Positions 59,384 through 63,999 of a stretch of 64,000 nt of DNA are shown here, piece after piece. Under the pieces are notes generated by a model. That model was not told the DNA's origin, ran no database searches, and saw nothing but the letters and a program-made list of their open reading frames with translations. The position numbers and the translations under genes were made by a program. The stretch is taken from NCBI RefSeq assembly GCF_000619905.2, contig NZ_CP012371.1, positions 2,418,001 to 2,482,000 of the forward strand, written 5' to 3'. The stretch comes from Nitrosospira briensis C-128. GTDB taxonomy: Bacteria > Pseudomonadota > Gammaproteobacteria > Burkholderiales > Nitrosomonadaceae. Numbering within the stretch: position 1 is the stretch's first letter; each line of letters starts with the position of its first letter.

Positions 59384-60490
59384 ATGAACAAACGCGATTA
59401 CTATGAAGTTCTGGGCGTTAACCGCGACAGCAGCGAAGAGGATATAAAAAAAGCCTATCGCAGACTGGCGATGAAACATCATCCGGACCGCAATCCGGAT
59501 AATCCCAAATCGGAAGAGCATTTCAAGGAGGCCAAGGAAGCCTACGAAATACTGTCGGACCCGAAGAAGCGCGCAGCATACGACCAGCATGGCCATGCCG
59601 GCGTGGATCCTAATATGGCGGGCGCGGGTGCCCAGGGATTTTCCGACGCATTCGGCGATATATTCGGCGACCTCTTCGGGGGCCGTGGAGGACAGGCCAA
59701 TGTCTATCGCGGTGCGGATCTGCGCTATAACCTGGAAATTTCGTTGGAACAGGCGGCACGCGGAACCGAAACAAAGATCCGCATCCCGACGATGGATGCG
59801 TGTGGAACCTGCCATGGGAATGGCGCCAAGCCCGGTACTTCACCCGTTACGTGCCCTACCTGCAACGGCCACGGCCAAGTCAGGATGCAGCAAGGGTTTT
59901 TCTCGATTCAGCAAACCTGCCCCAAATGCCATGGAAGCGGGAAATTTATCTCGAGCCCATGCGTTACGTGCGGCGGTTCGGGACGCGTCAAGCACCATAA
60001 GACCCTGTCGGTAAAGATTCCTGCCGGAGTGGATGAAGGCGACCGTATCCGTTTATCCGGGGAGGGTGAAGCTGGGGTCAACAATGGCCCGTCGGGGGAT
60101 TTGTATGTCGTTATCAATCTCACTCCTCATTCTGTCTTTCAGCGCGACCACAATGATCTGCACTGCGAAATGCCCATAAGCTTTACCACTGCCGCACTCG
60201 GCGGGGAAATTGAAATTCCTACGCTCGACGGCCACGCCAAAATCAGGATTCCCGCTGAAACTCAGAGTGGGAAAGTATTCCGGTTACGCGGCAAGGGCAT
60301 CAAAGGTGTGCGCAGCAATAACCAGGGCGATCTATTATGTCATGTGGTAGTGGAAACCCCGGTCAAGCTCACGGCGCGTCAGAGGGAGCTGTTGCAGGAA
60401 CTGGAAGTGATCAATCAGGAAGGCGGTCCTCGCCACAGCCCCCGTGCCAAATCATGGATGGACAAGGTGCGGGAGTTCTTTGCGGAGTAA
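59384..60490 (+). CDS. dnaJ: Chaperone protein DnaJ
   Basis: A 368-residue type I Hsp40. The J domain has the HPD loop ([10 protein letters not shown] near 31-36), then a Gly/Phe region (GGRGGQANV), four zinc-binding CxxCxGxG repeats ([32 protein letters not shown], about 138-203) and the C-terminal substrate-binding domain. It stimulates DnaK ATP hydrolysis. It follows dnaK by 134 bp. An IS element starts 33 bp after its stop. Confidence 0.98.
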
Positions 60491-60606
60491 TCTTCCGGCG
60501 ATAAGAACAAGACGTAGGGCAATGGAATGGACACCTCCTACCTAAACGGCATCGTAATGTGCCAGACTGAAGATTCCAACCAATCAGTCGAAGGAGGAGG
60601 TGTGAA

Positions 60607-61623
60607 ATGGATGTTACCTGTATTGGCATAGACTTGGCAAAGCAAGTATTTCAGATTCACGGTGTTGATCATCACGGCAAGGCAGTAGTAAAGAAACAGC
60701 TACGGCGCGGTCAGATGCTGTCGTACTTCCGCAAGCTGGCGCCGACTTTGATCGGCATGGAAGCCTGCGGCAGTGCCCACTACTGGGCACGTGAGTTGGG
60801 CGAGATGGGACACGACGCACGCCTGATGTCGCCGCAATTCGTCAAGCCCTACGTCAAGAGCGGCAAGAACGACGCGCATGATGCCGAAGCGATCTGTGAA
60901 GCCGTAAGCCGTCCCAGCATGCGCTTTGTTCAGGTCAAGAGCGTGGAACAACAAGTAATGCAAGCGGAACACCGAATTCGCGCCCGGCTCATCAAGGCAC
61001 GCACGGCACTCAGCAATGAGATACGCGGCTTGCTCGGTGAATTCGGCATTGTACTTCCCGCCTCCCTGACGAGATTGCGCCGAGCCATACCCGAACTGCT
61101 GGAAGATGGCGAGAATGGCCTGCTGAGTGATTTCCGCCGACTGCTCTGCCTGCTGGGGGAAGAATTGCGCAAGCTGGATGACAACATCAAAGAATACGAT
61201 GCCCGCATTGCCCAGAGGGCGCGGGAAGACGAACGCATCCAACGGCTCCTGCGCGTAGAAGGAATTGGTCCGGTCGTCGCCAGCGCCCTGGTGTCTGCGG
61301 TAGGTAACGGAAAACAGTTTTGCAAAGGCCGGGACATGGCAGCCTGGCTGGGATTGACGCCAAGCCAGCATTCCAGTGGCGGCAAGAGCCAATTGGGGCG
61401 CATCAGCAAACGCGGCGATAAATACGTACGCATGTTGCTGATACACGGCGCACGAGCGGCGCTCAAGGCGGCGGAGAACAAGGAAGACGCCCGTAGCCGC
61501 TGGGTGACGGGGCTGGCGAAACGACGCAACAAAAACATCGCGACGGTGGCACTGGCGAACAAGAACGCCCGTATTGCATGGTCAATCCTGAGCCGTGAGG
61601 AAACGTATCGAACAGCGGTATAA
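60607..61623 (+). CDS. IS110-family transposase, copy 1
   Basis: A 338-residue DEDD/serine recombinase. The RuvC-like N-terminal domain shows IGIDLAKQVFQIHGVD (Asp), GMEACGSAHYWAREL (Glu) and VKSGKNDAHDAEAICEA (Asp-Asp); the C-terminal Tnp20 domain has the helix-hairpin-helix VEGIGPVVASALVS and the serine segment TPSQHSSGGKSQLGRISKRGD. AGGAGGAGG lies upstream of the ATG. The family cuts and joins DNA without flanking duplications of the DDE type and is guided by an IS-encoded RNA. The protein appears identical to copy 2. Confidence 0.95.
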   Translation: MDVTCIGIDLAKQVFQIHGVDHHGKAVVKKQLRRGQMLSYFRKLAPTLIGMEACGSAHYWARELGEMGHDARLMSPQFVKPYVKSGKNDAHDAEAICEAVSRPSMRFVQVKSVEQQVMQAEHRIRARLIKARTALSNEIRGLLGEFGIVLPASLTRLRRAIPELLEDGENGLLSDFRRLLCLLGEELRKLDDNIKEYDARIAQRAREDERIQRLLRVEGIGPVVASALVSAVGNGKQFCKGRDMAAWLGLTPSQHSSGGKSQLGRISKRGDKYVRMLLIHGARAALKAAENKEDARSRWVTGLAKRRNKNIATVALANKNARIAWSILSREETYRTAV

Positions 61624-61689
61624 CAGCAGGCAGTTCCAGGAAAGTTTAGCAGGAGACATCAAACAACGATTGCGTAGCAAAACGAATTG

Positions 61690-61870
61690 ATGGCAAACAG
61701 GTCAGACCGGCGTAAGTGACTCAGCTTATTGTGTTGGCTCACTGGCGAAGCAACAATCGACAAAGCCGCTAGGGCGATTTGAGACTTACGCGCGAATTCC
61801 ATCATGGCTCAGGTACCTCGCTACCCAACAGGAAGCCGGATATACGGAAGCAGTTGAACCAAAACCATCA
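61690..61870 (+). ncRNA. Candidate bridge RNA / seekRNA, IS copy 1
   Basis: Lies in the non-coding 3' part of the IS, where IS1111-group elements encode their guide RNA. A closing stem GCGTAAGT (61710-61717) pairs with ACTTACGC (61784-61791). Inside the loop, GCTTATTG (61724-61731) is complementary to the right flank CAATAAGC, and TAGGGC (61770-61775, followed by GAT) equals the left flank TAGGGC, so the two guides would pair with opposite strands. Downstream, ATTCCAT (about 61796-61802) complements the IS left end ATGGAAT, and GATATAC (about 61839) resembles the IS right end CATATA. RNA limits are estimates; transcription is inferred. Confidence 0.5.
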
Positions 61871-61906
61871 ACACGGGTTGCTTGCAAAACGGGAGGTGTC
61901 CATATA

Positions 61907-62132
61907 TGCAATAAGCGAAGTGCATTGCACCGTCAACTTGAGACATCACTTGGGTAATGGTTGGTAATGTCTTGGAAAACGCAATTTTGATCAACCGCGC
62001 CGGATTGAAACGTCAGCATTTTTGGGCGAGAGTTCGATGACGCAATGAAATTAGACGCGACTCTATAATAGTCATGCATGGCAATAGTTAGAGAAAATTC
62101 TCATACGGCGCAATGCGTTTCGCTTATTGTCG
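61907..62132. other. Spacer between the two IS copies with REP-like halves
   Basis: 226 bp without a gene. Each end is a REP-type palindrome interrupted by an IS: GCAATAAGCGAAGTGCATTGC at the left and the complementary type GCAATGCGTTTCGCTTATTG at the right. The middle is AT-rich and unrecognised. Confidence 0.6.
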
Positions 62133-62168
62133 TATATGGACACCTCCCGTTTTGCAAGCAACCCGTGT

Positions 62169-62349
62169 TGATGGTTTTGGTTCAACTGCTTCCGTATATC
62201 CGGCTTCCTGTTGGGTAGCGAGGTACCTGAGCCATGATGGAATTCGCGCGTAAGTCTCAAATCGCCCTAGCGGCTTTGTCGATTGTTGCTTCGCCAGTGA
62301 GCCAACACAATAAGCTGAGTCACTTACGCCGGTCTGACCTGTTTGCCAT
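62169..62349 (-). ncRNA. Candidate bridge RNA / seekRNA, IS copy 2
   Basis: Minus-strand counterpart of the copy 1 candidate. The guide GCTTATTGT matches its flank over 9 nt (CGCTTATTGTCG) and TAGGGC matches the other flank. Two independent insertions agreeing with the same pair of guide segments is the main support. Limits are estimates. Confidence 0.5.
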
Positions 62350-62415
62350 CAATTCGTTTTGCTACGCAATCGTTGTTTGATGTCTCCTGCTAAACTTTCC
62401 TGGAACTGCCTGCTG

Positions 62416-63432
62416 TTATACCGCTGTTCGATACGTTTCCTCACGGCTCAGGATTGACCATGCAATACGGGCGTTCTTGTTCGCCAGTGCCACCGTCGCG
62501 ATGTTTTTGTTGCGTCGTTTCGCCAGCCCCGTCACCCAGCGGCTACGGGCGTCTTCCTTGTTCTCCGCCGCCTTGAGCGCCGCTCGTGCGCCGTGTATCA
62601 GCAACATGCGTACGTATTTATCGCCGCGTTTGCTGATGCGCCCCAATTGGCTCTTGCCGCCACTGGAATGCTGGCTTGGCGTCAATCCCAGCCAGGCTGC
62701 CATGTCCCGGCCTTTGCAAAACTGTTTTCCGTTACCTACCGCAGACACCAGGGCGCTGGCGACGACCGGACCAATTCCTTCTACGCGCAGGAGCCGTTGG
62801 ATGCGTTCGTCTTCCCGCGCCCTCTGGGCAATGCGGGCATCGTATTCTTTGATGTTGTCATCCAGCTTGCGCAATTCTTCCCCCAGCAGGCAGAGCAGTC
62901 GGCGGAAATCACTCAGCAGGCCATTCTCGCCATCTTCCAGCAGTTCGGGTATGGCTCGGCGCAATCTCGTCAGGGAGGCGGGAAGTACAATGCCGAATTC
63001 ACCGAGCAAGCCGCGTATCTCATTGCTGAGTGCCGTGCGTGCCTTGATGAGCCGGGCGCGAATTCGGTGTTCCGCTTGCATTACTTGTTGTTCCACGCTC
63101 TTGACCTGAACAAAGCGCATGCTGGGACGGCTTACGGCTTCACAGATCGCTTCGGCATCATGCGCGTCGTTCTTGCCGCTCTTGACGTAGGGCTTGACGA
63201 ATTGCGGCGACATCAGGCGTGCGTCGTGTCCCATCTCGCCCAACTCACGTGCCCAGTAGTGGGCACTGCCGCAGGCTTCCATGCCGATCAAAGTCGGCGC
63301 CAGCTTGCGGAAGTACGACAGCATCTGACCGCGCCGTAGCTGTTTCTTTACTACTGCCTTGCCGTGATGATCAACACCGTGAATCTGAAATACTTGCTTT
63401 GCCAAGTCTATGCCAATACAGGTAACATCCAT
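62416..63432 (-). CDS. IS110-family transposase, copy 2
   Basis: Amino-acid sequence identical to copy 1 (338 residues) with all catalytic segments intact, so both copies look active. The two genes point toward each other, separated by about 790 bp including both non-coding ends. Recent duplication is implied by the identity. Confidence 0.95.
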   Translation of the reverse strand: MDVTCIGIDLAKQVFQIHGVDHHGKAVVKKQLRRGQMLSYFRKLAPTLIGMEACGSAHYWARELGEMGHDARLMSPQFVKPYVKSGKNDAHDAEAICEAVSRPSMRFVQVKSVEQQVMQAEHRIRARLIKARTALSNEIRGLLGEFGIVLPASLTRLRRAIPELLEDGENGLLSDFRRLLCLLGEELRKLDDNIKEYDARIAQRAREDERIQRLLRVEGIGPVVASALVSAVGNGKQFCKGRDMAAWLGLTPSQHSSGGKSQLGRISKRGDKYVRMLLIHGARAALKAAENKEDARSRWVTGLAKRRNKNIATVALANKNARIAWSILSREETYRTAV

Positions 63433-63600
63433 TTCACACCTCCTCCTTCGACTGATTGGTTGGAATCTTCAGTCTGGCACATTACGATGCCGTTTAGGTA
63501 GGAGGTGTCCATTCCATTGCCCTACGTCTTACGCGCCCTACGTCTTACGCGCGTTGACATTTATAACGCTTAAGAAGACTGATTGCTCCGCTTCAGAATC

Positions 63601-63999
63601 TCAGACGTTTTCGCCATCAATATAGAACCACTGCCCGGCTTCGCGCACAAAACGGCTGATTTCATGCAAACGATGCGCCCGACCGTCCACCTTATAGCGC
63701 GCCACAAATTCTACCATCGTGTTATCCGGCTCTAGCTGTTCATGACGCCTCACTTCCAGCCCCAGCCATTTGCAGCGCGCGCTGTGTGGTTTGTTTGCAA
63801 GTTCAAGTGAAGCGGGACGTGTACTGTGATGCCAAGTCCTCAGCAGATAATCTTCACGACCGAGGGTATAGGCAGTGTAGCGTGAGCGCATCAATGCTTC
63901 TGCAGTGGGAGCCGCTTCGCCATCATCCAGATAGCGGCCGCAGCAGCCGACGTATGTTTTGTTGCGGTCCGATAAAGGGGAGCGCCGCCGGGTTCCCAC
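63601..63999 (-). CDS. ychJ: YchJ/UPF0225 family protein, at the window edge
   Basis: About 132 residues visible, similar to the YchJ family (NTF2-like fold with a SEC-C metal-binding motif): YVGCCGRYLDDGEAAPTAEALMRSRYTAYTLGREDYLLRTWHHSTRP and the C-terminal RLHEISRFVREAGQWFYIDG. The usual N-terminal CPCGSG is replaced here by SPLSDR, so only the later Cys pair of the zinc motif remains. The frame runs to the last bases of the window, so the true start (GTG 63999 or beyond) is not settled. Partial. Confidence 0.8.
   Translation of the reverse strand: MGTRRRSPLSDRNKTYVGCCGRYLDDGEAAPTAEALMRSRYTAYTLGREDYLLRTWHHSTRPASLELANKPHSARCKWLGLEVRRHEQLEPDNTMVEFVARYKVDGRAHRLHEISRFVREAGQWFYIDGENV

Follow-up and report, generated by a model that had tools for sequence, protein, structure and literature searches.

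A REP-directed IS1111-type element in Nitrosospira briensis and its predicted guide RNA

Directly behind dnaJ in Nitrosospira briensis C-128, two copies of one insertion sequence (IS) stand in opposite directions, each splitting a REP palindrome. This arrangement raises the question of how the element selects its insertion sites. Based on sequence comparison (element anatomy, ends, empty sites, covariation of guides with flanks and with element ends, and RNA fold), we conclude that it is very probably an IS1111-group element whose insertion at REPs would be RNA-guided, through two target guides and donor guides.

Anatomy of the element and its REP insertion sites

The window, by which we mean the whole 64-kb stretch of DNA analysed, contains two of the three copies of a 1387-bp IS1111-type element; the third is located elsewhere in the genome, within G000:C1:2369313-2370733. 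Copy 1 occupies positions 60520-61906 on the + strand and the identical copy 2 lies 226 bp away, inverted, at 62133-63519 on the - strand. The inverted repeat formed by the two copies measures 1398 nt at 100% identity, longer than the element because 11 flanking bases also agree. Copy 1 consists of a 7-bp left extension (CAATGGA), a subterminal inverted repeat (sTIR), the transposase gene, a 3' non-coding region, the second sTIR and a 3-bp right extension (ATA). The sTIRs are 12 bp long and perfect (ATGGACACCTCC at 60527-60538 and GGAGGTGTCCAT at 61892-61903, + strand), and 280 non-coding bases extend from the stop codon to the end of the right repeat. The two copies and their spacer together form a 3-kb inverted repeat (60520-63519), which might invert or fold into a hairpin, and might affect the 3' end of dnaJ.

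The transposase is a 338-aa protein of the DEDD type, encoded at 60607-61623 (+) in copy 1 and at 62416-63432 (-) in copy 2. It contains the Pfam domains PF01548 (DEDD, RuvC-like, N-terminal; 1.4e-15) and PF02371 (Transposase_20, C-terminal; 2e-24) and matches the NCBIfam model NF033542, 'IS110 family RNA-guided transposase', at 3.9e-107; its relatives include proteins of Nitrosomonas and Sulfuricella. In the available parts of Siddiquee et al. (2024, PMC11187229), the IS1111 group is described as having a DEDD transposase of 330-350 aa, sTIRs of about 11-13 bp and 7-bp/3-bp extensions. The element agrees in its domains, protein length, sTIRs, extensions and long downstream non-coding region, and it also inserts in a single orientation and without target duplication.

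Read in the orientation of the element, copy 1 is flanked by GACGTAGGG and TGCAATAAGCGAAGTGCATTGCACC, copy 2 by GACGTAGGG and CGACAATAAGCGAAACGCATTGCGCC, and copy 3 by AAGGTAGGG and CGACAATAAGCGAAACGCATTGCGCC. All three copies thus read GTAGGG, IS, YG, which corresponds to one orientation in the target, with the insertion point between REP bases 6 and 7. The REP split by copy 1 is divided into GTAGGG (60514-60519, +) and its remainder TGCAATAAGCGAAGTGCATTGCACC (61907-61931, +). The one split by copy 2 is divided into GTAGGG (63520-63525, -) and a right part that reads CGACAATAAGCGAAACGCATTGCGCC on the - strand (62107-62132).

We compared these sites with G020, a genome of the same genus whose dnaJ is 96% identical over 401 bases. 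It lacks the element itself; the nearest thing in it is a 43%-identical relative, L015, on a separate contig. Downstream of its dnaJ lies an uninterrupted GTAGGG followed by TGCAATAAGCG and, about 175 bp further on, an inverted GTAGGG followed by CGACAATAAGCG. Each of these REPs is the empty form of one window site, identical over GTAGGG and at least 11 next bases. The uninterrupted sites fix the ends of copies 1 and 2, in agreement with the pattern seen in relatives, and establish that target duplication is absent at both. They also bear out the earlier proposal that the element targets REP-like palindromes. The copies, being 100% identical, inverted and 226 bp apart, could be taken for the product of one composite event or duplication instead of two insertions; the presence in G020 of two different uninterrupted inverted REPs, one for each site, makes this exceedingly improbable, and we treat the copies as two separate insertions. 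On its left side, copy 2 adjoins a perfect 16-bp tandem repeat (GCCCTACGTCTTACGC twice, 63519-63550) at a site where G020 has a single GTAGGG; a search of the own genome for this junction with up to 2 mismatches returned only its own place.

GTAG-tagged REPs are described in PMC3733652, as far as its accessible text goes, as short repeated palindromes that often form inverted pairs and often lie close to genes of REP-associated tyrosine transposases (RAYTs). The targets of the element share these features: they repeat in the own genome, form an inverted pair in G020 and, at copy 3, adjoin a RAYT gene (NF047646, 1.1e-59). Allowing up to 3 mismatches, the palindrome core was found at 19 places in the own genome, including the 3 interrupted by the IS, and the reversed pattern at none. 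REP copy number is low here; several of the REPs are tagged GTAGGGC, and the uninterrupted ones include GTAGGGCGTCAATAAG at 625621, 2281216 and 2370837. The REP part of the search query occurred at 10 places in G020 and at 29 in another genome, G015. Two mobile systems appear to be stacked in this way, with the RAYT/REP population serving as landing pads for the predicted RNA-guided element. As a separate observation, the RAYT gene and REPs beside copy 3 are inverted between the own genome (L155:1902-2541) and G020 (L156:1196-1838), and the breakpoints fall within REPs or beside them; candidate causes are the RAYT, the recombinase of the IS and homologous recombination.

Proposed target guides and the fold of the predicted RNA

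The predicted guide RNA (bridge RNA or seekRNA) lies in the 3' non-coding region. Its extent, which does not imply transcript ends, was set with a covariance model (R1) at 61689-61856 (+) for copy 1, a training-set sequence scoring 123 bits, and at 62183-62350 (-) for copy 2. A top-strand target guide, GCTTATTGT (61724-61732, +), could pair with the right-flank sequence ACAATAAGC, and a bottom-strand target guide, TAGGGCGA (61770-61777, +), equals TAGGG of the left flank plus CGA of the right flank; both were located by flank matching and evaluated with shuffles. The matches to copies 2 and 3 are 9 nt for the top-strand guide and 8 nt, spanning the insertion point, for the bottom-strand guide, which together read the target as TAGGG / CGACAATAAGC. 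Copy 1 fits less well: its right flank reads TG instead of CGA and its target is one base short of what the guides call for, leaving 8 nt for the top-strand guide and TAGGG only for the bottom-strand guide. The target pattern expected of the element would be TAGGG-YG(N)CAATAAGC.

The preliminary description had read guide segments from two insertions, a reading that holds for the presence of the guides, which are slightly longer than proposed and are matched by three copies, copy 1 being the poorer fit. Its first segment, GCTTATTG, is indeed complementary to the right flank at both window copies and forms part of a longer guide. Its second, TAGGGC, was equated with the other flank; in copies 2 and 3 this becomes the left flank plus one base within the 8-nt guide, and in copy 1 only TAGGG agrees. 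The proposed bridge-RNA layout, with guides pairing to opposite target strands, was recovered at 61724-61732 for the top strand and 61770-61777 for the bottom strand. When 251 bases of the non-coding region were shuffled by dinucleotides, 1 of 3000 shuffles yielded the 9-nt match to the flank of copy 2, 23 of 3000 yielded the 8-nt match, and none yielded both. The 8-nt and 6-nt matches as initially noted would be less significant than this pair.

A stem enclosing the guides, also anticipated, is formed by GCGTAAGT (61710-61717, +) and ACTTACGC (61784-61791, +) and extends inward as CTCA/TGAG. Folding of the single sequence gave no support for a structure, with 144 of 200 shuffles equally good for 155 nt (z 0.48) and 17 of 200 for 88 nt (z -1.47), so that the evidence for the fold rests on covariation. 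We aligned 27 of 34 listed sequences (alignment A1), omitting L094, L075, L076, L096, L099, L033 and L104 as more distant or differently built. RNAalifold gave 32 consensus pairs, 24 of which were changed on both sides, and the covariation score reached 0.630, compared with 0.192 in shuffles (0 of 500 as high) and at most 0.126 when slid. The outer stem accounts for helices 3 and 4, with 8 column pairs, all changed on both sides (the window row is gapped in one). Hence the stem predicted to be conserved across homologous IS 3' ends was found. A second alignment, fitted to R1 and comprising 40 matches (38 distinct, 37 from loci outside the model), gave a score of 0.635 versus 0.173. R1 matched 36 of 44 sources that belong neither to this IS nor to the training set, although some are close to sequences used in training; among these 36, L171 and L067 were weak (E about 0.005) and L178 matched over part of its length. 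A scan of the whole window scored the two copies alone; the next match had an E value of 0.83. A scan of 60400-63700 against Rfam, with E up to 1, returned no matches. Separately, we observed two such guide RNAs about 1.1 kb apart in Mesorhizobium alhagi (L036:1733-1887 and L036:3006-3172).

If the guides direct insertion, they should change together with the flanks among relatives, as the preliminary description had also foreseen. Homologues were drawn from one search with 39 loci, from 33 of 399 genomes of the order (E ≤ 1e-70) and from 18 of 125 genomes of the family (E ≤ 1e-110), the own genome being included in both counts. Ends were readable for 47 copies, which form 32 groups; 20 loci with no recognised repeat pair are outside this set. 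Ten loci that overlapped or duplicated others were removed manually (L001, L002, L004, L013, L016, L017, L061, L020, L022 and L023), and loci whose best aligned stretch was below 200 aa, including L027, L030 and L037 to L056, were kept out of repeat reading. L030 and L038 were read by eye, and L030 and L025 entered the comparison of guides in the close clade. The guide-flank test was free of alignment and of position, and each group was represented by its first copy; in the element's own group this was copy 2, a better fit than copy 1.

Across the 32 groups, both target guides matched their own flanks better than those of other groups. For the top-strand guide, the first 12 bases of the right flank were complemented and scored against the own non-coding region, giving a mean score of 6.97, compared with 5.18 for other groups' flanks. 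For the bottom-strand guide (left 8 plus right 3 bases), the means were 6.38 and 5.10. Neither value was reached in 20000 permutations (p ≤ 5e-5 for both), and strand-swapped controls were null (p 0.59 and 0.77). The own flank ranked among the best 3 of 32 for 18 of 32 groups with the top-strand guide and for 10 of 32 with the bottom-strand guide, so that many individual cases are weak. Clear cases were Methylobacter L032 (CGAACTGA and TTATCCCGA), Vibrio albus L031 (AACGCAAAT and AGGAGAA) and, by eye, Nitrosomonas L030 (TGGATAAG). Of 23 further loci examined, L179 among them, 15 had readable ends; matches of at least 7 were found in 9 of these 15 for the top-strand guide and in 8 of 15 for the bottom-strand guide (counts made with no permutation), and L159 and L174 matched in neither. 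A Klebsiella plasmid copy (L178) tried as a positive control was dropped; it ends after the target loop.

One of the further loci, L157, encodes a transposase 77% identical to that of the element and carries the guides TTTTTCAAC and CAGGCCG, with flanks CAGGC / CGTTGAAAAA; the bottom-strand guide meets the flank CAGGC plus CG. Outside the guides, its RNA is by eye much like those of L030 and L058. We take L157 to be a natural retargeting, in which guides and flanks changed together. Within the close clade (the window element, L018, L025, L030, L058 and L158), the bottom-strand guide is constant (CTAGGGC) and the top-strand guide is variable. The left flank is GTAGGG in the element's three copies, L018, L030 and L058, and GTAGGT in L158, and is missing in L025. 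The sites of L018, L058 and L158 fit their own top-strand guides poorly, a counterpoint which suggests that targeting is loose or that some copies were carried there by other means. As a side observation, six related IS copies in Azotobacter vinelandii (L019 to L024) share their flanks, as far as sequence is given, apart from the first base on the right, which is either C or T; they probably lie inside another repeated element.

The site might instead be picked by the transposase itself or by a REP cruciform, with the RNA-like matches being coincidence or remnant. The targets are palindromes able to form hairpins, GTAGGG and the right side of the REP occur at all three copies, and copy 1 fits its guides imperfectly, all of which would suit such a choice. 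Yet the guides follow the flanks in 32 groups, many of which by eye are not REP-like, and L157 combines a similar transposase with altered guides and a different, altered site. We regard site choice by protein or cruciform as very improbable and retain the reading in which the RNA guides select the REP.

Proposed donor guides and the circle junction

Two further segments had been noted for their resemblance to the IS ends, a likeness that we could specify. The left donor guide ATTCCAT (61796-61802, +) complements ATGGAAT of the left end. The right donor guide ATATAC (61840-61845, +), noted earlier as GATATAC, equals the right end ATATA plus the first left-end base C, and would therefore read the junction of the circular form.

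Donor guides were compared with element ends in the same 32 groups. The right donor guide scored 6.19 against its own junction and 4.29 against others, and the left donor guide 5.63 and 4.73, respectively; 20000 permutations gave p ≤ 5e-5 for each, a value which overstates the case because ends and RNA are inherited together. The guide base agrees with the base that begins the left end in 30 of 32 groups, and the guide triplet with the 3-bp right extension, again in 30 of 32. On the transposase tree, the minimum numbers of changes are 9 for the base and 6 for the triplet. Sign tests on independent pairs of the tree had only 2-3 pairs, too few for significance.

The RNA could alternatively read only the target, with the donor-like segments being structural and their likeness to the ends due to shared ancestry. 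This reading draws on the finding, in the available parts of Siddiquee et al. (PMC11187229), that an 82-nt seekRNA suffices for movement of ISEc11; from that length we infer a seekRNA lacking the donor part. It would also be in keeping with the co-inheritance of ends and RNA and with the position of the left donor guide, which is partly in a helix. Against it, the right donor guide follows the junction base through the tree changes counted above and tracks right-end variants that include ATATA, ATGTA, TTGTA and ACA. A target-only RNA is thus unlikely, though less so than the other alternatives considered here, and we favour an RNA that also reads the donor. If IS1111 RNAs read their own circle junction, this bears on whether the 82-nt seekRNA is the whole story.

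The circle junction also contains a predicted promoter, TTGCAA-17-TACAAT, whose -10 box spans the junction. Junction promoters scoring at least 9 of 12 were found in 26 of 32 groups, compared with 4.75% of shuffled junctions. A consensus scan of 61560-61960 for signals of a separately transcribed RNA detected neither promoter nor terminator. The better candidate is the promoter at the circle junction.

Predicted mechanism and relation to known systems

In the mechanism that we propose, the 3' non-coding region would give rise to a guide RNA of about 150-170 nt, divided into a target loop and a donor part. In the target loop, one guide would pair with the top strand to the right of the insertion point and the other with the bottom strand across it, jointly picking the head of a GTAG-tagged REP palindrome. 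In the donor part, one guide would pair with the left end and the other would read the circle junction of both ends. Transposase and RNA would then bring circle and REP together and recombine them between REP bases 6 and 7 with no duplication. Transcription, RNA binding by the transposase and strand exchange are expected here by analogy with the published family.

The element is an added member of the IS1111 seekRNA/bridge-RNA class with a REP target, not a novel type of system. As in that class, its target guides address both strands and the top-strand guide lies 5' of the bottom-strand guide; its donor-reading segments are recognised by covariation only, with shared ancestry partly confounding. 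ISEc11, ISKpn4, ISPst6 and ISPa11, as presented in the accessible sections of PMC11187229, resemble it in their 330-350-aa DEDD transposases, sTIRs, 7-bp/3-bp extensions, downstream non-coding region, top-strand guide placed first, overlapping matches, lack of duplication and circle-junction promoter. It differs from them in target and host, and in that donor guides, which those sections do not discuss, are supported here by covariation. The same source mentions a natural redirection of a relative, ISXne4. For ISPa11 of Pseudomonas aeruginosa, Tobes and Pareja (2006, PMC1525189, available text) report the same insertion position within the REP as seen here, in another REP sequence and another host. 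The IS621 bridge RNA and predicted IS110/IS1111 bridge RNAs (Durrant et al. 2024, PMC11208160, parts available to us) likewise have separate target and donor guides and address two strands; REP targets occur among them, and in many IS1111 RNAs the donor nucleotides lie in a multi-loop. Unlike here, the RNA of the IS110 group is located in the left end. In the same parts of that paper, IS1111 donor pairing rests on manual inspection of few elements. Literature searches for Nitrosospira with IS110 and for Nitrosomonas with RAYT returned nothing. RNA-guided recombinases of the IS110/IS1111 type attract interest as programmable tools for inserting DNA, and this element is a compact, naturally REP-directed member with known empty sites and a relative apparently retargeted in nature.

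Two features could be candidates for novelty: a closed left donor guide, and a split in which one target guide stays constant and the other varies. We put them forward jointly and tentatively, as a possibility that falls somewhat short of even odds. The donor half would be closed by GATGG in the free RNA and open by exchange onto the real left end. The bottom-strand guide, set on the GTAG tag common to REPs of many bacteria, would give host breadth, and the top-strand guide would follow fast-evolving REP stems, perhaps those of the host. Counts of REP types in 7 genomes were sparse and did not establish that the top-strand guide follows host REPs. No description of the pairing between GATGG and the left donor guide was found in a search of chiefly freely accessible literature, including the available parts of Durrant et al. 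(PMC11208160). The pairing itself is visible in helix 1 of the covarying fold, in both alignments, where GATGG (61689-61693, +), which resembles the left end, is joined to CCATC (61799-61803), a segment overlapping the left donor guide. A short copy of the left end thus appears to be carried in the RNA and to close this guide. Across 43 loci, which are related, in part near-identical, and include the window IS twice, the left-end base, the GATGG base and the guide base were G, G and C in 29 and A, A and T in 9, with 5 exceptions.
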